A program made the position numbers and the translations under genes. A model generated the notes under the pieces. The model had not been told where the DNA came from, did not search any database, and worked only from the letters and a program-made list of their open reading frames with translations. From the NCBI RefSeq assembly GCF_000214595.1, contig NZ_AFIG01000001.1, positions 1,654,382 to 1,718,381 of the forward strand: a DNA stretch of 64,000 nt, given 5' to 3'. Below are positions 26,565 to 45,910 of the stretch, one piece after another. Each line of letters starts with the position of its first letter. Position 1 is the first letter of the stretch. The stretch is from Methylophaga thalassica MP. Its GTDB lineage: Bacteria > Pseudomonadota > Gammaproteobacteria > Nitrosococcales > Methylophagaceae.

Positions 26565-29387
26565 ATGGAAAAAACATACAACCCTGACGCAATTGAGCAA
26601 CGTTGGTACCAGAAGTGGGAACAAGCTGGCGAGTTTAAACCGACAGGCGAAGGCTCGCCTTATGCGATTATGCTGCCCCCACCTAATGTTACCGGTAGCC
26701 TGCATATGGGTCATGGCTTTAATAACACCATCATGGATACCTTGACTCGTTATCATCGCATGAAAGGTGACAATACTTTATGGCAACCGGGCACCGATCA
26801 CGCCGGTATCGCGACACAAATGGTGGTAGAGCGCCAACTTAACGCTGAAGGTAAAACCCGTCTCGACCTGGGACGAGAAGATTTCACTAAACGTATCTGG
26901 GAGTGGAAGGAAGAATCCGGCGGTAATATTACCCGTCAGTTACGTCGTCTTGGTTCCTCACTCGACTGGTCACGTAACCGCTTTACGATGGATGACGATC
27001 TGTCTGAAGCCGTTAAACATGTCTTCGTTAAGCTGTATAAAGAAGGTCTGATCTATCGCGGCAAACGCCTGGTGAACTGGGATCCGAAATTACACACAGC
27101 CATTTCTGATCTGGAAGTGGAAAATCGCGAACAAAAAGGCCATATGTGGCACCTTCGCTACCCACTTGCAGATGGACTGAAAACCAGTGAAGGCAAGGAC
27201 TATATTGTGGTCGCTACAACTCGGCCGGAAACCATGTTAGGTGATACCGGTGTTGCAGTGAACCCGGAAGATCCTCGCTACAAGGATCTGATTGGTAAAG
27301 AGATTATTTTGCCGTTAGTTAACAGACGCATTCCGATTGTTGGCGATGAACATGCCGATATGGAAAAAGGCACAGGCGCGGTGAAAGTTACGCCAGCCCA
27401 TGACTTCAATGACTATGAAGTCGGCAAGCGTTGTGGCCTGGCAATGATCAATATTTTCACCCTCAATGCCGATGTACGTGACGTTCCACAAGTATTTAAT
27501 ACTGATGGCAGTGCTAATACTGAACTCGAGGCCAACATTCCGGAAGCCTATCGTGGACTGGAACGCTTCGCAGCCCGTAAGGCGATTGTGGCTGACTTTG
27601 ACGCAGCTGGTCTGCTGGAAGAGATCAAGGATCATGACCTGACAGTGCCTTATGGCGATCGCGGTGGCGTGGTCATTGAACCGATGCTGACCGATCAATG
27701 GTATGTCGATGCAAAAACACTAGCCAAACCAGCGATTGAGGCGGTTGAAACCGGTAAAGTGAAATTTGTGCCGAAATCCTATGAAAATATGTATTTCAGT
27801 TGGATGCGTGATATTCAGGATTGGTGTATTTCACGCCAACTCTGGTGGGGGCACAGAATCCCTGCCTGGTACGATCCACAAGGTAATGTGTATGTCGGTC
27901 ACGATGAAAATGCCGTTCGCGTAGAAAACAATCTGGGAGCAGACGTCGAGTTAACTCAGGATGAAGACGTACTCGATACCTGGTTCTCCTCTGCACTTTG
28001 GCCATTTTCAACATTGGGTTGGCCTAAAGATGATGAAGCAGTAAAAACCTGGTATCCGGGCAATGTATTGGTCACCGGTTTTGACATTATTTTCTTCTGG
28101 GTAGCCAGAATGATGATGATGGGCATTCATTTTATGGGCGATGTTCCATTTAAAGAAGTGTATATCCATGGCCTGGTCCGTGACTCACATGGTCATAAGA
28201 TGTCGAAATCCAAAGGCAATGTGCTTGATCCCATCGACATCATCGACGGTATTGATTTGGAAACGCTGGTACAAAAACGTACTTCGGGCATGATGCAACC
28301 ACAACTGGCTGAAAAAATTGAGAAAGCCACACGCAAAGAATTCCCGGATGGCATTGAAGCTCATGGTACAGACGCACTGCGCTTTACCTTTGCTTCGCTC
28401 GCCTCTACCGGACGTGATATCAACTTTGATATGAACCGTATCGCTGGCTACCGTAATTTCTGTAATAAATTATGGAATGCGGCACGTTACGTCTTAATGA
28501 ACACCGAAGGACAAGACACCGGTGTTGATAATGATCAGGTTGAACTCAGTCTGGCAGATCGCTGGATTATCTCTCAGTTGCAAATCGCTGAAAAAGAAGT
28601 CAGTACAGCGATTGAGGCTTATCGATTTGATCATGCCGCACAGGGTATTTATGAATTTATCTGGAACAACTACTGTGACTGGTATTTAGAGCTATCGAAA
28701 CCGGTATTAAACAGTGAGTCAGCATCTGATGCAGCAAAACGCGGTACACGTCGCACACTGGTACGAGTGCTTGAAGCGACATTAAGAATGGCACATCCGT
28801 TTATGCCGTATATCACAGAAGAAATATGGCAGACGATTGCACCGTTAGCGGGTGTTAAAGGCGAGACGATTATGCGTCAATCTTACCCGCTTGCTGATGA
28901 AAGTAAAGTTGATCAGAATGCGGTGACTGAAATGGAATGGGTCATGCAATTTGTTACTGGTATTCGCTCTATTCGCTCACAAATGAATATCGCGCCGAAA
29001 AAAGCACTGCCGGTATTACTGAAAGATGCTTCTGATTCTGATAAAGTCATTTTAACCAGCAATCAACAGTTCCTGAGCCGTCTAGCCAATCTGGAATCAA
29101 TTGATATCCTGGAAGGTAAAGCTCCTGCTGCGGCAACAGCCTTAGTCGGTAAAATGGAAATCTTAATTCCACTCGAAGGCTTGATTGATAAAGACGCTGA
29201 AATCAACCGTCTGAATAAAGAAATGGCGAAACTGGATAAGATCATTAAACAGTCTTCAGGTAAGCTATCTAATGAAAATTACGTCGCCAAAGCGCCGGCA
29301 GATGTTGTTGCCAAAGAAAAAGAGAAACTCGCTGAACTGCAGCAATCCTATGAATTACTTGAACAACAACTTAAAGCATTGAGCTAA
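26565..29387 (+). CDS. valS: Valyl-tRNA synthetase
   Basis: Class I synthetase that charges tRNA-Val and edits threonyl errors. I start it at the ATG 26565, giving [16 protein letters not shown], the family N-terminus; the open frame continues upstream but without conserved sequence. The 940 residues include the ATP-binding HIGH-type motif ([14 protein letters not shown]), the CP1 editing domain (about 200-400; [13 protein letters not shown]), the KMSKS loop (HKMSKSKGN), the anticodon-binding domain, and the C-terminal coiled coil (last about 65 residues). A strong terminator follows. Confidence 0.97.
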
Positions 29388-29452: not shown

Positions 29453-30007
29453 TTATTCTTTTTCCATACCAATTTCATAAAGTTCAATATTGGCTTCTTC
29501 AATTTCACCTGTTGTGGCATCCACATCAACTTTCACTTCATAGCCATGAATGCTTTGAATATCAAATTCGTAGGTCGCATCACCATCGAAACCGATTTCA
29601 TATTCTGAAGCAACAACTTTCCCTGGGTGTACAGCTAAGGCAAATTCTTTCGCTTCAGCTTGTGAAATTTTCGCTAATTTTTTGAAAACGGGATCATTAG
29701 CATCGACTTCACGCTCAATCTCACCAATGAAACCTTCTTCAGCATTACATTCAACATTGTAGGTCTTGCCATCGGCTTTCGCTTCAATATCAAATTCATA
29801 AACAGGATCATCGCCTTCCATTTTCATTTCAACTTTACGTGCATGACCAGGAATAGTATCCAAAGCGGCATCCAGACAAGTTTCAATTTTTACGATATCC
29901 CAGCTACGGATATCATCCAAATCATAATTATCATTTTCAGCAAATGCAGTTGAACTAATGCTTAAAGCGAGGACAGCAGGGATTGTCTTCAAGAACATTG
30001 AAGTCAT
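29453..30007 (-). CDS. Secreted tandem-PepSY-domain protein 1 (possible lanthanide-binding, Lanpepsy-like)
   Basis: The 184-residue protein has a signal peptide (cleavage after TAFA, residue 23) and then two PepSY-like repeats (about 38-101 and 112-178). Each repeat holds a YEFDI strand (70-74 and 146-150) and dense Asp/Glu residues. The first repeat has a cysteine pair (Cys44, Cys87), which may form a disulfide in the periplasm. A paralogue with the same plan lies at 43064-43564. A protein of this architecture, Lanpepsy of Methylobacillus flagellatus, binds lanthanides; a similar metal-binding role here is inference. PepSY domains are also known as protease inhibitors, an alternative. It is followed by a terminator and preceded by an inverted repeat. 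Confidence 0.8.
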   Translation of the reverse strand: MTSMFLKTIPAVLALSISSTAFAENDNYDLDDIRSWDIVKIETCLDAALDTIPGHARKVEMKMEGDDPVYEFDIEAKADGKTYNVECNAEEGFIGEIEREVDANDPVFKKLAKISQAEAKEFALAVHPGKVVASEYEIGFDGDATYEFDIQSIHGYEVKVDVDATTGEIEEANIELYEIGMEKE

Positions 30008-30165: not shown

Positions 30166-31860
30166 CTAAACACTGACACGTTTATATTGACGATATTGTG
30201 GATGCCAGAAGAGCTCTTCAATCTTATGTTCTAATTCACTATCCGATATCTTAGAAGCCAGTTGCTGATTTTGCGCAATTTTCACAATTTGAAATGCCAT
30301 CTTTTTGCTTAACTCAGCGATATCATCCAAGGCTGGCAGTAACTGCTCTTCTTCCCCATTAAGTAGTGGTGAGTGTGTTGCCAGCACCTCACTTGCGACC
30401 ATCATCATTTCATGTGTGATGTGTTTAATTTGACCAGCGATAACGGCCAAACCAATCCCAGGAAAAATATAGCTATTATTACACTGTGCTATTGGATAGG
30501 TTTTACCTTGATAGACAACCGAGTTAAAGGGGCTCCCAGTAGCGATAATGGCTTTACCCTCCGTCCAGCTAAGCAGTGACTCAGGCAAGGCCTCAATCTG
30601 CTTTGAAGGATTACTCAAAGGAAAGATAATGGGCCGCTCGCAATGGGCTAACATCGTTTTGATGACTGTCTCATTAAACAGTCCCGCCTGCCCAGATACT
30701 CCAATAAGTACTGTCGGTGAAGCGTGATGAATAACATCCGTTAAATCCAGCGTAATTTTATCAACCTCCCACTTTGTTCGCAGACTGGCCTTTTGGCTTA
30801 GACGGCGTTGAAAATCGAATAAGCCAGCCATGTCATCCATTAATAGTCCGGCTTTATCAATCATGAATACACGTTCGCGGGCCTGAGCTTCACTAAGCCC
30901 TTCTGTCATCATTTGTCGGATTATCTGCTCAGCAATGCCACAACCGGCAGAACCCGCTCCTGCAAATACGATAGTCTGCTGTGACAATGTTTCATGTTTT
31001 GCTTTACACGCCGCCAATAAAGAGCCGACCGTTACTGCAGCCGTGCCTTGAATATCATCATTAAAACAACACAATTGTTGTTGATATCGCTCCAGTATCG
31101 GCAGCGCTTTGCTTTGTTCGAAATCCTCAAATTGTAATAAAACATCGGGCCAGCGTTTTTTGATTGCCTGGATAAACAGGTCGATAAACTCATCATATTC
31201 TGCGTCGTTTATACGTTTATGTTTCCAGCCGATATAAAGCGGATTATCAAGTAAGGCCTTATTGTTAGTCCCAATATCCAACATTACCGGTAAGGTATAA
31301 GCTGGACTTATCCCAGCGCAGGCGGTATAGAGTGATAACTTACCAATAGGGATCCCCATCCCTCCCACGCCCTGATCACCCAGTCCGAGAATCCGGCTAC
31401 CATCGGTGACCACGATAACTTTGATCTTATCTTTAGTGACATTGTGCAGAATATCGTCAATGCGATCTTTATCCGGATAGGAAATAAATACACCACGCGC
31501 CCGCCGATAAATTTCAGAAAAGCGTTCACAAGCTTCACCTACTGTCGGCGTATAAATAATCGGCATCATCTCAACCAGGTGCGCTTTTAATAAATAATAA
31601 AATAAGGTTTCATTATTATCCTGAAGATAACGCAAATAGATGTGCTGATTGATGGGGGCTTTGAAGGTTTTATATTGCAGATAGGCTCTTTCCGCCTGTT
31701 CTTCAATCGTTTCAAAGCGATGTGGAATTAAACCATTGAGATTAAAATCATGACGTTCCTGCTCGCTAAAGGCAGTGCCTTTATTCAGTAAAGGTGTGGC
31801 AAGTAAGGCCGGCCCAGCATGAGGAATATAAATTGGATCTTTCGCCTTAATACCACGCAT
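30166..31860 (-). CDS. maeA: NAD-dependent malic enzyme (oxaloacetate-decarboxylating)
   Basis: Converts malate to pyruvate and CO2 with reduction of NAD(P). The 564 residues match the large-subunit (SfcA/MaeA) type: the conserved [19 protein letters not shown] with catalytic Tyr103, [26 protein letters not shown], the metal-binding [11 protein letters not shown], and the Rossmann loop [15 protein letters not shown]. The DIGTNN motif is also typical. The start is ATG. It lies between the PepSY gene and the two-component genes with gaps of 158 and 131 bases, so it is probably transcribed on its own. Confidence 0.96.
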
Positions 31861-31991: not shown

Positions 31992-32648
31992 TCAAGGTTT
32001 GATAATGCCTAACACAACCGCAATATTAGCCAGGTCTGCTGCGGTATTTACCCGCAGTTTACTTTTAATCTGTGTATTGTAGTTTGCAATGGTTTTATAC
32101 CCCAGGTGCATATCTGCGGCGACTTCATGGGCAGTCATGCCTTTTGCCAGTCGACAAAATACATCAAATTCACGTGGTGAAAGTAAATCCAGCACTTTTC
32201 GATAATGCTCGATATTGTCATGCCGGACATCATCAACTTCAGGGAGCAGACTTTCTTCAATATATCGCTTGCCTTCTGCCACACTTTTAACCGCTTCAGC
32301 CAGCACTTCGGCTGCACTATTTTTACTGACGTATCCCATAGCACCCGCTTCCAGTGCGCGTTCAACATAAATAGCCTCATCATGAATGCTGTAGACCAAA
32401 ATAACCGCGTCAGAATCCAGCTTTTGAAGTCGACGGATAGTTTCAAGCCCACCGATGCCTGGCATGGATAAATCCATCACCACCACGTCGGGTTTAAAGC
32501 GTTCATATTCCTGTGTGACTAACTCCCCTCTGTCCAGGTCACTAATCTGCCCGATAAAGGGTTGTGATGATAGTAGAATTCGAAATCCTGCTCGTACTAC
32601 TTCATGGTCATCGACTAACAGTACTTTGATTTTATTATTGTTGTTCAT
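31992..32648 (-). CDS. NarL/FixJ-type response regulator (MoxX-like)
   Basis: DNA-binding response regulator of 218 residues. The receiver domain (1-125) shows the acidic pocket VDDHE (Asp13, Asp14), phosphoacceptor Asp59 in VVVMDLSMPG and Lys109 in GYVSKNSA. The C-terminal LuxR-type helix-turn-helix (about 150-215) has LSPREFDVFCRLAKGMTAHEVA and KTIANYNTQIKSKL. Its start is one base after the stop of the cognate kinase gene, so they form one unit. Targets are unknown; by the kinase type, methylotrophy genes are a candidate. Confidence 0.93.
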   Translation of the reverse strand: MNNNNKIKVLLVDDHEVVRAGFRILLSSQPFIGQISDLDRGELVTQEYERFKPDVVVMDLSMPGIGGLETIRRLQKLDSDAVILVYSIHDEAIYVERALEAGAMGYVSKNSAAEVLAEAVKSVAEGKRYIEESLLPEVDDVRHDNIEHYRKVLDLLSPREFDVFCRLAKGMTAHEVAADMHLGYKTIANYNTQIKSKLRVNTAADLANIAVVLGIIKP

Positions 32649-32649
32649 A

Positions 32650-33969
32650 CTACTTCTCTATAAATGGCATACGTGCTGTCACCGTCACGCCATCATCTGG
32701 TGAAGACTCGAACATAAACAGTCCTCCCATACTTTCTACTCTCTCACGCATGGCAAGAACACCAAACCCCTCGCCTGATGATGAACCGCCGATACCATCA
32801 TCGGATACTTGAATCACCACCCATTTTTTTTGCTGAACAAGGCTCTGCCTGACGCTGATATTTGCCAGATTAGCTCTGGCATGACGTACGACATTGGTCA
32901 AACATTCCTGCACAATACGATAAACATGGATCGCCACTTCCTCATCCAAGTCATCAATACAGTCATCGTAATTTAAATGAATATCCAGGGACGGCTGCCG
33001 GCGTTTCCACTCGCCAACCAGGTCGGTCAGGGTCGCCACCAGTCCTAAATCAGTTAAACTGAGAGGATGTAACGTTCTCATCATCGATCGCACAACCCCA
33101 GATAAATGATTACAAATTTCGATAATCGAATCAGCAATACTCTGGACTTTGCTATCGGATTGTTTAGCCACAACAGCCATCGCTTTCACTGCAGTAAGAG
33201 ACTGCCCCATTTCATCATGTAATTCACGTGACATATGTCGACGTTCATTTTCCTGAATATGCATGGTATGTCTTGCCAGCGCCTGATTATTTTGTCGGGC
33301 CGCATTTAACGCACCGGTCAGGTTATTAATCTCTGCCGCAATAGCATCAAACTCACTAATGCGAAAGCGTGGTAATCGTTGTTCATAATTACCACTTTCC
33401 ACCGTTTTTAAACCCGATAAAATGGTTTTCACCGCCGTCAACATCGAATGAAACACGACATTGATAGCTAGGAAAATAATGCCGAGCATTAATACGATCG
33501 ACCAGAAATACACCTGTGACTCCCGCCAGGCTTCATGGATTTCATCCATTGGGTCAGCGCTGATCACAATACGTTGAACCGCATCGTTAGGCAGTTTTAT
33601 TTCATAGGCAGAACTGATGCTATCCATCATCACCGCATCAATAAACCATTGAGGTGGTGCATCATCGGTGATGTCACTCTTTTCATCAGTCAGCATGGTT
33701 TCATTACCGGCCTGGTCAAAGATCGTGATCTGTAAATGACGCGTTTCACGTAAGCGACTGATTTGTTCCAGCCATTCACTCTCGGTATGCTCATCCCGCG
33801 TGAACTGATTAAGTCCAAACTCAACCATTTGCAGCGCCAAATTGTAGGAAGATGTCACCTCATCCCTGACCGACTCACGGGCCTGCCAGACAGCCAAACC
33901 GGCTCCGAATACGATGATAACCAGTACCGAAATAACAATCCGTAAATTAATTAATCCTCTTAAGCTCAT
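32650..33969 (-). CDS. NarX/MoxY-type sensor histidine kinase
   Basis: Membrane sensor kinase of 439 residues. Two membrane helices (about 10-28 and 154-176) flank a periplasmic domain of about 125 residues that by its pattern (RESVRDEVTSSYNLALQMVEF) resembles the LapD/MoxY N-terminal domain. A HAMP linker (177-230) follows. The HisKA_3 box is ERRHMSRELHDEMGQSL with phospho-His251. The ATPase domain shows the N box (VQECLTNVVRHARA), G1 (DDGIGG) and G2 (GEGFGVLAMRERVES). MoxY kinases of methylotrophs control methanol oxidation; that assignment is inference from domain type. The ligand is unknown. The response regulator follows directly. Confidence 0.9.
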   Translation of the reverse strand: MSLRGLINLRIVISVLVIIVFGAGLAVWQARESVRDEVTSSYNLALQMVEFGLNQFTRDEHTESEWLEQISRLRETRHLQITIFDQAGNETMLTDEKSDITDDAPPQWFIDAVMMDSISSAYEIKLPNDAVQRIVISADPMDEIHEAWRESQVYFWSIVLMLGIIFLAINVVFHSMLTAVKTILSGLKTVESGNYEQRLPRFRISEFDAIAAEINNLTGALNAARQNNQALARHTMHIQENERRHMSRELHDEMGQSLTAVKAMAVVAKQSDSKVQSIADSIIEICNHLSGVVRSMMRTLHPLSLTDLGLVATLTDLVGEWKRRQPSLDIHLNYDDCIDDLDEEVAIHVYRIVQECLTNVVRHARANLANISVRQSLVQQKKWVVIQVSDDGIGGSSSGEGFGVLAMRERVESMGGLFMFESSPDDGVTVTARMPFIEK

Positions 33970-43001: not shown

Positions 43002-43044
43002 TAAAAAAAACCGCAGTGCACTTAGCGAAATATGCACTGCGGTT
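43002..43044 (-). terminator. Terminator between nadC and PepSY gene 2
   Basis: A perfect 12-bp stem (AACCGCAGTGCA/TGCACTGCGGTT, 12-base loop) has eight T residues after it on the minus strand. It ends the TonB receptor-PepSY transcript; with the hairpin alone it may also slow nadC transcripts. Confidence 0.88.
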
Positions 43045-43063: not shown

Positions 43064-43564
43064 TTATTCTAAACCGACTTGCCAGAGCTCAAGGTTTTTC
43101 TCAATAATCTTCCCAGAACTCGCATCGACCTCCACTTTCATTTCTTTTCCATCTTTTGTGGCAATATCAAATTCATAGGTGGCTTTTCCACCTTCTTCAA
43201 TTTCATATTCCACTTCAACCACTTCGCCAGGATAGAGCGCTAAGGCAATTTGTCTTGCCTCTAACTCGCTAATTTTGGCGTGTGCTTTAAATTTCGGATG
43301 GTTCGGATGATCGACTTCTTGTTCCACTTCTATAATTTCGCCCGTTTTTACTAAGCACTCAAGGTCCCAGTCAGCACCATCAATACCACGGATATCAAAT
43401 TCATAAACATCACGCTCGTCTTCGACTTTACGTTCAACCTTAATAACATGACCTGGTTTCAAGGTTTTAGCCGCTGTTAAACAACGCTCGAAATACTGAG
43501 GTGTTTCCTCGGCCCATAGCAAACATGGAAATAATAATGTGAAACAAAGAAATAGAACTTTCAT
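43064..43564 (-). CDS. Secreted tandem-PepSY-domain protein 2 (possible lanthanide-binding, Lanpepsy-like)
   Basis: The 166-residue protein has a signal peptide (cleavage after LLWA, residue 18) and two acidic PepSY-like repeats (about 22-84 and 97-160). YEFDI strands lie at 54-58 and 130-134, and a cysteine pair (Cys28, Cys70) occurs in the first repeat. It aligns along its whole length with the protein at 29453-30007, so the two are paralogues. It lies 54 bases downstream of a TonB-dependent receptor gene, with a hairpin between them, and has a strong terminator after it. Metal binding in the periplasm, possibly lanthanides, is inference from the known two-PepSY lanthanide protein of Methylobacillus. 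Confidence 0.82.
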
Positions 43565-43582
43565 TTATGTACCTTACAAATG

Positions 43583-43608
43583 AAAAGGGGCTGAAATCAG
43601 CCCCTTTT
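43583..43608 (-). terminator. Hairpin between the TonB receptor and PepSY gene 2
   Basis: An 11-bp stem (AAAAGGGGCTG/CAGCCCCTTTT, AAAT loop) lies 10 bases after the receptor stop. The T run after the stem is only four bases, part of the stem itself, so it may be an attenuating terminator that lets some transcripts continue into the PepSY gene. Confidence 0.75.
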
Positions 43609-43618
43609 AAATAGATGA

Positions 43619-45910
43619 TTACATGGTTAGTTTGAAACCAATCCATCCTGCACGAGGTGCACTTGTACCGACGAAATGTTCATCACTGTCATAAGCATCC
43701 AGACCCGGTGCTTCATCAGGCTCACCGTATAAACCAAAAGTGTTGTACTCGCTGTCGAATAAATTATCGACTTTTGCGAAGAACTGCAGATGCTCATTGA
43801 CTTTGTAACGGCTGTGCAGGTTCACAACACGATAACCCGCAATTTTCTTATCGTCATTGGCTTCATCACCACGGTAGTACTGACTAGAGTGATATGACGC
43901 GGTTAAACCTGCAGAAAATTGTTGCGTGAATGCATAGTCCAGACCTACATTTAAGTTATGTGCAGGAATGCTTGGCAGACGATCACCTTTAGACACGTTA
44001 TATAAATCACCATCACGTGAATAAGTGAAATCATCTTCAAATGTCGCACGAACATAACCATAGTTTGCTGACCAGCTTAGCTTCTCATATTGTCCGGCCA
44101 TACCCAGTTCAACACCCGCACGCGCTGTTTTATCAATATTTCTGAAGTTACCTAAGCCTAAACGACCACTCACATCATCCGATTGACTTTCATCTTCTGG
44201 GAAAAACAATAAATCATCTTTTAACTGGGTGTAATAGACATTGGCATACCAGTTGAATAATTCTTGTTGACCACGCAGACCTGTTTCAATGGTTCTGGCA
44301 ACCACATCATCCAACGGTGGATCGGCTAAGAACGCATTTGGATAAGCACAAGGTGACTCTGGTTCAGCACAAGTCAATTCAGTTGCAGTTGGTGCACGAT
44401 TTGATTCGTTATAGCTGACATAAGAAGTCATAGTATCTGTCAATTTATACGTTAAGCCCAATGAAGGATTTAAACGTTTAAATGTATGAGAATTTCCTGA
44501 CTCATTCAGATCTTGATCACCACCTTCACTAGTACCTGAAATATCCACTTCAATCCAGTTATAACGCGCGCCAACCGTCATGGCTAGACGTTCAGTTAAT
44601 GAATGCGTATTAGTGAAGAAAATACTATAAGTATCTGTCTTAACATTGCCATCAACTACTGTATCATCAAGAATATATCCAGTACCTACTGTACCTCGAG
44701 TATCATCGAAAGTAGCCAATTCTGTTTGTGAGGAATAATCCACATTTGAATGATCAAAACCTACACCCACAATTAATTGATTATCGCGACCAAACAAATC
44801 ATTTAAAAAAGTTGATTGTAAAGCAAAGCCAAAGCTGTCTTGCTCTGTTTTACTTGTATTATTCGCTGCAAGGTCTTCAGTACCGTCTAGACCCAAGGTG
44901 GTGCCATCAACAATCAGGTCACCATCTTCATCTTCAATGTCTGTGCCATTAAATTCATTCTCGGTACCATCACCATTAAATGAATCACGATCACTCTTAC
45001 GATAGTACGTATTAGCAGCCAACATAGTTTTATCATTTAACCAGTGAGTACCATTCAGGGTAAACATACGCAGTTTATTTTGCGTGTTATCTGGATGCGT
45101 GAACACTGCTTCACGGTCTGCATCGACTAAGAGAGTAGGAGATGCCCCGTTACCATTTAAATCACTATCAACGGCTGTGATACCAAAATCTAATGTGGTG
45201 TCTTCATCAGCATAGCTTAAGTTTGTGAAAAACTGCTCTACACGCGATGGAGAGTAATCACGCCAACCATCTTCTTTGGTAATCGAACCTGTAACAAAGT
45301 AAGCTAAGTTACCATCACTACCACCACTTTCAATGGTACCTGAGTCACGACCAAATGAGCCTGTATATGCTTCTAAGCTATGGCCTGGGTTAGTAAAACC
45401 GTTCTTAGTTTTGATAGATAAAGCACCGCCCAGCGTATTCAAACCAAATAACGGATTTGAACCTGGAATCAGGTTCATGCTGGCAATCGCTGACTGTGGA
45501 ATTAATTCAAAGTTAACCGCGTCACCAAAGGGCTCATTAACACGAATGCCATCAACATAGACAGACAAACCTTGAGAGTTACCCACTAAAGGTGAAGCCG
45601 TAAAGCCACGGAATTGCAGATCAGGCTGGAATGGGTTGTTTTGTGCCTGATTCAGACTGACACTGCCCAATGTTTTATTCATGAAATCAGAAATATCTAA
45701 CGCCTGAACACGCTCGATATCTTCATCAGTTGCTGTCTGCACATTCGCAGCAACTTGATCCTTAGGTAAGCCTACTCCATGTAGAGGGGTTGTTCCCACG
45801 ACTTCAATGTCACTTAATTTAACATCATCGTCAGCAGCAAAACTCGCACTGGAAAACAGCGCGGAAGCTAGCATGACGCAAATCAGCTTTCTCTTTTGCG
45901 GAAATTGCAT
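43619..45910 (-). CDS. TonB-dependent outer-membrane receptor
   Basis: Outer-membrane active transporter of 763 residues. A signal peptide (cleavage after SFAA, about residue 25) precedes a TonB-box-like segment (DIEVVGTTP). The plug domain (about 50-160) shows LQFRGFTASPLVGNSQGLSV, YVDGIRVNEPFGDAVNF and NPLFGLNTLGGALSIKTK. The 22-strand barrel region ends APRAGWIGFKLTM with a terminal hydrophobic residue. The ligand cannot be read from the sequence. The co-directional PepSY gene and the apparent methylotroph background suggest a metal or metal chelate, possibly lanthanide; siderophores are the default alternative. A -24/-12-type promoter candidate lies upstream; I saw no Fur box. Confidence 0.92.
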   Translation of the reverse strand: MQFPQKRKLICVMLASALFSSASFAADDDVKLSDIEVVGTTPLHGVGLPKDQVAANVQTATDEDIERVQALDISDFMNKTLGSVSLNQAQNNPFQPDLQFRGFTASPLVGNSQGLSVYVDGIRVNEPFGDAVNFELIPQSAIASMNLIPGSNPLFGLNTLGGALSIKTKNGFTNPGHSLEAYTGSFGRDSGTIESGGSDGNLAYFVTGSITKEDGWRDYSPSRVEQFFTNLSYADEDTTLDFGITAVDSDLNGNGASPTLLVDADREAVFTHPDNTQNKLRMFTLNGTHWLNDKTMLAANTYYRKSDRDSFNGDGTENEFNGTDIEDEDGDLIVDGTTLGLDGTEDLAANNTSKTEQDSFGFALQSTFLNDLFGRDNQLIVGVGFDHSNVDYSSQTELATFDDTRGTVGTGYILDDTVVDGNVKTDTYSIFFTNTHSLTERLAMTVGARYNWIEVDISGTSEGGDQDLNESGNSHTFKRLNPSLGLTYKLTDTMTSYVSYNESNRAPTATELTCAEPESPCAYPNAFLADPPLDDVVARTIETGLRGQQELFNWYANVYYTQLKDDLLFFPEDESQSDDVSGRLGLGNFRNIDKTARAGVELGMAGQYEKLSWSANYGYVRATFEDDFTYSRDGDLYNVSKGDRLPSIPAHNLNVGLDYAFTQQFSAGLTASYHSSQYYRGDEANDDKKIAGYRVVNLHSRYKVNEHLQFFAKVDNLFDSEYNTFGLYGEPDEAPGLDAYDSDEHFVGTSAPRAGWIGFKLTM

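Follow-up and report, generated by a model that had tools for sequence, protein, structure and literature searches.

A lanP gene paired with the gene of a TonB-dependent receptor

The stretch of DNA analysed here (hereafter, the window) comprises 64,000 nucleotides of the genome of Methylophaga thalassica MP, which is 3.26 Mb in size and assembled in three contigs. On the minus strand of the window lie a gene coding for a very acidic TonB-dependent receptor of 763 amino acids (43619..45910), which belongs to a family associated with XoxF-type methanol dehydrogenases, and, 54 bp downstream, lanP1 (43064..43564), which codes for a secreted 166-amino acid tandem-PepSY protein of the lanpepsy family. 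Both open reading frames were found where the original prediction had placed them. Pfam recognised a plug (PF07715) and a beta-barrel (PF00593, E 1.9e-47) in the receptor, and two PepSY stretches (E 3.9e-21) in LanP1. The YEFDI strand predicted for each PepSY repeat is indeed present in both, and the repeats are acidic as described: with cleavage assumed after residue 18, mature LanP1 contains 36 aspartates and glutamates in 148 residues. The LanP1 N-terminus is signal-like, as judged by reading only. In 26 of 57 genomes of the Methylophagaceae family, lanP is preceded, at a distance below 600 bp and in the same orientation, by the gene of a homologous receptor; the pairing is thus no accident.

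The two genes had also been predicted to share a terminator. A stem search located a terminator-like 12-bp hairpin 3' of lanP1 (43009..43044, minus strand), in line with this claim. However, a perfect 12-bp hairpin followed by a short T tail (43583..43608, minus strand; arms AAAAGGGGCTGA/TCAGCCCCTTTT) lies wholly within the 54-bp gap and equips the receptor gene with a separate terminator- or attenuator-like element, so the claim is only partly right. Perfect stems of at least 7 bp were found in 14 of 21 receptor–lanP gaps (one in the window and 20 from among the 22 named loci with a receptor–lanP pair, see below), and the conservation of the intergenic hairpin rules out a simple operon with a shared terminator. 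A consensus terminator scan listed neither hairpin, since its rule demands a loop of 3–8 bases and the loops here are 2 and 12 bases long. No Rfam element reached the gathering threshold between positions 28000 and 47000. Control by Fur was set aside, as the window contains no match to the 19-bp Fur-box consensus with three or fewer mismatches.

LanP1 matched chain A of Protein Data Bank entry 9vy3 with an E value of 9.8e-54 (64% identity over 141 residues). This 153-amino acid chain is present in eight entries (9vy3–9vya) under the name "Propeptide, PepSY amd peptidase M4", and a literature search found no paper naming 9VY3. Lanpepsy (LanP) of Methylobacillus flagellatus was reportedly described by Hemmann et al. 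in 2023 (JBC 299:102940). Methylovorus and Methylobacillus are close kin, and two Methylovorus proteins are closest to the 9vy3 chain (76%) among the named lanP loci, i.e., the best 80 of 120 found. The length of the chain, in turn, fits the lanpepsy construct D24–E175 (PMC11899968). On these two grounds, the 9vy3 chain is very probably lanpepsy of M. flagellatus. LanP1 is homologous to this solved tandem-PepSY chain over its full length, which bears out the originally proposed likeness to lanpepsy to the extent that the chain is correctly identified.

The resemblance extends to the acidic residues: 30 of the 34 acidic positions of the 9vy3 chain are identical in LanP1, compared to 56% of other positions. 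In a hand-chosen 73-row alignment, which included two proteins from the window, 59 of the 80 named loci, and 12 other loci (mis-framed L018 and L073, and L062, whose start is doubtful, were kept out of alignments), 16 columns have an acidic residue in 90% or more of the rows. The AlphaFold model of LanP1 has a predicted local distance difference test (pLDDT) score of 92; a single Foldseek match was obtained at E ≤ 0.001, the best VIA-align match had Z 8.4 over 65 residues, and 9vy3 was not among the matches listed (library to April 2026). The closest named relative is a Methylophaga sulfidovorans protein (89% identity). A methylotroph genus or family, including Methylophaga, Methylotenera, Methylococcaceae, and Methyloversatilis, is named in the titles of 48 of the best 80 lanP loci, the other 32 titles being mostly generic. 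One record, titled as a Klebsiella pneumoniae metagenome-assembled genome (L146), has a lanP locus resembling those of Betaproteobacteria L106 and L121, and is probably a mislabelled bin.

Like lanpepsy of M. flagellatus, LanP1 is small and secreted, comprises two PepSY domains, and keeps the acidic positions. Unlike that case, the window encodes two divergent paralogues, one by the TonB receptor and the other, LanP2, by an MxaY-like kinase (see below). In a 74-row tree they fall into separate clades, LanP1 with 13 rows (97/83) and LanP2 with 8 rows (100/99), while 9vy3 belongs to a 51-row group including Methylotenera and Methylovorus, within which its place is unsettled; the tree does not settle the orthology of either paralogue to lanpepsy.

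The receptor scored below the cut-off for all 19 NCBIfam families listed, siderophore models included; for example, 141 bits were obtained with TIGR01783 (cut-off 223.5) and 104 bits with the PqqU equivalog (cut-off 1200). This result, and the association of receptor homologues with XoxF-like enzymes and, in some cases, directly with xoxF (see below), speaks against an ordinary siderophore receptor. Its net charge of −7.86 per 100 amino acids is the most negative of the 23 receptors of the genome; the mean for the other 22 reading frames, one of which is truncated, is −4.21 (standard deviation 1.05). The long loop 312–348 has an average charge of −13.9 over 32 rows. Such strong acidity is what a cation importer might have. 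Fold matches reached Z 36.8; naming the ligand by fold was dropped, as BtuB, PqqU, FoxA, and FhuA tied. By description, the receptor, for which lanthanide import is proposed, resembles the known lanthanide TonB receptors LutH of Methylorubrum extorquens and LanA of Methylotuvimicrobium buryatense, as it too occurs in a methylotroph with XoxF. At another locus (L273, G000:C3:1403000-1422500), FecI/FecR-type regulators are encoded together with two TonB receptors of very large size (1159 and 1185 amino acids), which in their N-terminal part are 46–47% identical to the window receptor.

Co-occurrence and linkage with XoxF-type dehydrogenases

The M. thalassica genome encodes eight alcohol dehydrogenases dependent on pyrroloquinoline quinone (PQQ) that score above the family cut-off; a ninth relative scores lower. 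Seven of the eight contain the XoxF (lanthanide) signature WDYD, and one contains WDYA, the MxaF type; the expectation that the genome would contain a XoxF-type enzyme is thus borne out seven times over. The genome also encodes PqqC. At one of its loci (L286, G000:C1:608000-624000), four xoxF genes alternate with genes for response regulators and histidine kinases, with pqqC (confirmed) and a pqqB-like gene (by reading only) alongside.

Distribution of the three genes was surveyed in 369 genomes of the class, counting lanP only as a full tandem protein, XoxF-like enzymes at E ≤ 1e-100 and receptors at E ≤ 1e-50. XoxF-like enzymes accompany lanP in 16 of 18 genomes (2.0 expected, p 3e-15) and the receptor in 33 of 37 (4.1 expected, p 4e-35), and the receptor accompanies lanP in 15 of 18 (1.8 expected, p 3e-14). 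Four weaker lanP matches (G051, G055, G091, and G280) were left out of these counts; their inclusion would make the first figure 17 of 22. Eight XoxF-like genomes lack the receptor. Within the family, each pair of traits is common to 26 of 28 genomes among 36 good ones (p 4e-4), and among all 57, XoxF-like enzymes accompany lanP in 36 of 41 genomes (p 3e-4; 41 rather than 42 after exclusion of weak short PepSY rows). Related genomes are not independent, so these p-values are guides only. The XoxF-like set of the class (41 genomes) takes in MxaF- and ExaF-like matches; in 30 XoxF-like loci read, the motif was WDYD in 24, WDYA in one, and not readable in five. A receptor homologue was present in 32 of 349 genomes of a phylum survey.

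Nine apparent exceptions, genomes with lanP in which XoxF was absent or doubtful, were searched again. Dehydrogenases of the D-x-D type were found in four (G160, G382, G389, and G025), and G382 and G389, counted as lacking XoxF in the family figures, do have a WDYD enzyme. G416 and G410 contain a complete MxaF type and unreadable fragments, and G372 a complete MxaF type and XoxF fragments (88–90% identity). G392 and G393, genomes that are 73% and 69% complete, have at most a fragment.

Gene neighbourhoods were read with mechanically picked open reading frames, a procedure that hides some genes, chiefly in high-GC loci. The receptor gene is directly 5' of lanP in 22 of the 80 named loci, some loci being cut by contig ends. 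Outside this group, receptor genes adjoin lanP in L131 and L134, where the two genes are co-directional, and in L129, L135, L138, and L217, where they diverge. Among 20 fetched neighbourhoods of receptor homologues, the receptor is beside xoxF in three (L214, L215, and L216), beside a kinase–regulator pair in seven (L218, L220, L221, L223, L224, L227, and L228; MoxY domain Pfam-checked in L224 only), near ExbB/ExbD genes in L224 (checked) and L223 (by homology), and near methanopterin genes in L226 (checked), L217, and L219 (both by homology). PedC/PQQ-dehydrogenase ABC-type genes lie 1–6 kb from a receptor homologue in L284 and L274; in Pseudomonas putida, growth that depends on PedH requires a transporter of this type, PedA1A2BC (PMC12997753). 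In L097, lanP follows a block of DUF3450/ExbB, ExbB, ExbD, and TonB genes (DUF3450, both ExbB, and TonB Pfam-checked), and similar blocks precede it in L102 and L104 (ExbB and TonB by homology) and in L151 (ExbB only).

Some further neighbours recur. In five Methylotenera-like loci (L112, L117, L122, L124, and L133), xoxF starts ~2.2–2.6 kb past the lanP start. A pair of ~240-amino acid proteins and a Sel1/SPOR protein recur by the receptor in L131, L138, L217, L219, and L226, all of which except L217 also contain an mtdB-like gene; the one ~240-amino acid protein tested had no Pfam or NCBIfam match.

From the gene pair, the family of LanP1, the XoxF-rich genome, and the co-occurrence and linkage described above, we infer, with a probability of roughly 0.73, that the receptor and LanP1 import and buffer a lanthanide for XoxF-type methanol dehydrogenases; the ligand, the direction of transfer, and co-expression of the two genes belong to what is proposed. 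The receptor would use TonB energy to carry the lanthanide, either free or as a chelate, through the outer membrane. LanP1 would capture incoming Ln3+ in the periplasm by its rows of carboxylates, and would buffer it for delivery to the dehydrogenases. Such a function, already suggested by the original prediction, is supported, indirectly as regards the ligand, by the presence of XoxF, the failure of siderophore models to recognise the receptor, and the homology of LanP1 to the probable lanpepsy.

Several observations weigh against this reading. The genus includes several genomes (G400, G405, G406, G407, and G408) in which no lanP1 adjoins the receptor gene, G382 and G389 have the receptor and lanP on different contigs, and the hairpin stands between the two genes in the window. 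Acidic proteins are common among marine bacteria, the charge control was drawn from the receptors of one genome only, homologue L231 is not acidic (net charge +9), and the tied folds do not name the ligand. Some lanP relatives lie within ~3 kb of a CusA/CzcA-like RND efflux gene (L103, L109, L123, L128, and L132); that of L103, the one tested, scored 660.6 bits, below the CusA/CzcA cut-off of 701.5. Lanpepsy binds Ca2+ too and, in M. flagellatus under the conditions tested, seemingly has no direct tie to XoxF upregulation, Ln3+ uptake, or growth, according to a review (PMC11845868, section 12); E. coli with lanpepsy showed no enhanced La or Tb binding (PMC11899968).

Some of these observations would fit the view that a different hard metal, Fe3+ or Ca2+ for instance, is the one handled by the pair; uranium and iron are bound by PepSY proteins of which UipA is an example. 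The RND neighbours hint at wider metal roles of lanP relatives, and the efflux genes possibly serve export of lanthanides or of other metals. Against this view stand the tight co-occurrence with XoxF-like enzymes, the D-x-D type dehydrogenases recovered in four of the nine genomes that lack or seemed to lack XoxF, and the lack of a Fur-box match in the window; we consider it unlikely. A still less probable explanation is that the receptor imports PQQ, the cofactor shared by the dehydrogenases, as PqqU (YncD) does in E. coli, with LanP1 being an independent neighbour. The receptor shares with PqqU a TonB receptor fold and a link to PQQ enzymes, the tied best folds include that of PQQ-bound PqqU (9c4o, Z 36.5, 620 residues, root-mean-square deviation 2.5), L277 encodes a distant homologue in the vicinity of pqq genes, of which those for PqqB and PqqE were confirmed, and PQQ import would yield the same co-occurrence. 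However, the PqqU family model does not recognise the receptor (104 bits against 1200), the genome has its own pqqC, and the receptor–lanP linkage recurs.

A second paralogue beside an MxaY-like kinase

LanP2, which did not figure in the original prediction, is a 184-amino acid tandem-PepSY protein (29453..30007, minus strand) that is 52% identical to LanP1 over 142 residues and matches 9vy3_A with an E value of 6.4e-43. As judged by its sequence, it keeps the acidic positions less strictly than LanP1: 23 of 34 are identical (26 are acidic), compared to 54% elsewhere. On the same strand, the order of genes is as follows: a histidine kinase gene (32650..33969), a LuxR/NarL-type response regulator gene (31992..32648), a malic-enzyme-like gene, named by reading the sequence (30166..31860), and lanP2. 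The kinase contains a periplasmic LapD_MoxY_N domain (PF16448, 35.4 bits with a cut-off of 25) and HisKA_3 (44.7) and HATPase_c (44.9) domains. MxaY, which in M. buryatense runs the lanthanide switch, a change between calcium- and lanthanide-using enzymes (Chu et al. 2016, PMC5018670), has the same domains and is likewise followed by a LuxR-type regulator, its LapD/MoxY domain being noted in PMC6115532 as well; the window kinase, likened to MxaY by domains and description, differs in being linked to lanP2.

The kinase–regulator pair is close to lanP2 in 12 of 13 lanP2 loci fetched from the family; in the thirteenth (L245, 5760-7699), a different kinase and an OmpR-type regulator take its place. 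The malic-enzyme gene is missing or replaced in 5 of the 12 loci with the block, so it is probably not part of the module. Outside the family, the lanP2-type loci L248, L250, and L249, the last of which is short, showed no pair of this kind. Kinases of this type are encoded in 10 of the 58 named loci outside the receptor–lanP group, always within 1.1 kb of lanP, a closeness equalled by none of 20,000 random placements; the lanP–kinase linkage recurs in Methylococcaceae and Betaproteobacteria. On the tree, the kinase linkage requires at least 10 changes, rows with an unread wider neighbourhood being counted as unlinked. The ten kinase loci and nine receptor loci are not all independent, since L106, L115, L121, and L137, whose kinases score low, group in a single clade, and L129 resembles L135. 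Pfam analysis of eight kinases detected the LapD/MoxY domain above the cut-off in L126, L134, L150, and L152, below it in L096 (20.2 with a cut-off of 25), and not at all in L127, L115, and L106. The window kinase is 43–44% identical to the lanP-linked kinases of L126 (Methyloprofundus), L134, and L150 (Methylococcaceae), and 35–37% to those of L127 and L152. The LapD/MoxY domain ends with a conserved DEIxEAWxE motif, and E143 of the window kinase is kept in all 20 aligned kinases. This motif may be where residue E147 of MxaY lies; replacement of that residue by glycine renders MxaY constitutively active (PMC5018670).

A tentative model, possible rather than probable, is that LanP2 is the lanthanide receptor of the switch: once Ln3+ is in the periplasm, Ln-loaded LanP2 would dock on the LapD/MoxY domain of the kinase and turn it into a phosphatase, with mxa switched off and xox switched on. 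LanP proteins would then have two arms, one for import and buffering (LanP1 and the receptor) and one for sensing (LanP2 and the kinase). DbfQRS of Vibrio cholerae provides a precedent, as the genes of a kinase and a regulator accompany that of DbfQ, a periplasmic PepSY protein, which binds the sensor domain at 30 nM and drives the kinase to act as a phosphatase (PMC12714742); DbfQ has one PepSY domain and belongs to a membrane-stress pathway, whereas LanP2 has two acidic PepSY domains. MxaY is active without lanthanum and predicted to be inactive with it (PMC5018670), which is the direction the LanP2 model needs. Weighing against it are the published alternatives, in which XoxF itself acts on MxcQ (PMC6115532) or the lanthanide reaches the cytoplasm for PedS2 (PMC12997753), and the report that the regulator encoded after mxaY is dispensable for the switch in M. 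buryatense (PMC5018670). The least probable explanation of the pair is that LanP1 is a PepSY regulator of the general sort, controlling a kinase or peptidase in the way that DbfQ controls DbfS, with the receptor an unrelated neighbour: the tight binding of DbfQ to its kinase and the lanP–kinase linkage in 10 of 58 loci would fit, but the direct neighbour of LanP1 is a receptor, not a kinase, and LanP1 shares the conserved acidic positions with the solved relative.

Implications for lanthanide uptake and sensing

LanP, lanthanide receptors, and MxaY are already known. The lanP–receptor pair and the lanP–kinase module were not met in the literature searched, though the original lanpepsy and LanA papers may report them; neither arrangement was met in the accessible part of a lanthanome survey (PMC12482762). 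How methylotrophs sense lanthanides is an open question: a direct role of MxaY residue E147 is presented as speculation (PMC5018670), both direct binding and an uncharacterised indirect interaction were considered for PedS2 (PMC6115532), and lanpepsy is without an assigned role (PMC11845868). The recurrent linkage of lanP with genes of two kinds, those of MxaY-type kinases and those of XoxF-associated receptors, offers two testable roles for lanpepsy, and makes the receptor family a candidate for lanthanide import. If the sensing model is true, the recurrence of the kinase module in Methylococcaceae and Betaproteobacteria would make LanP2-type sensing general. The arrangement suggests how marine methanol users take up, and perhaps sense, rare earths.

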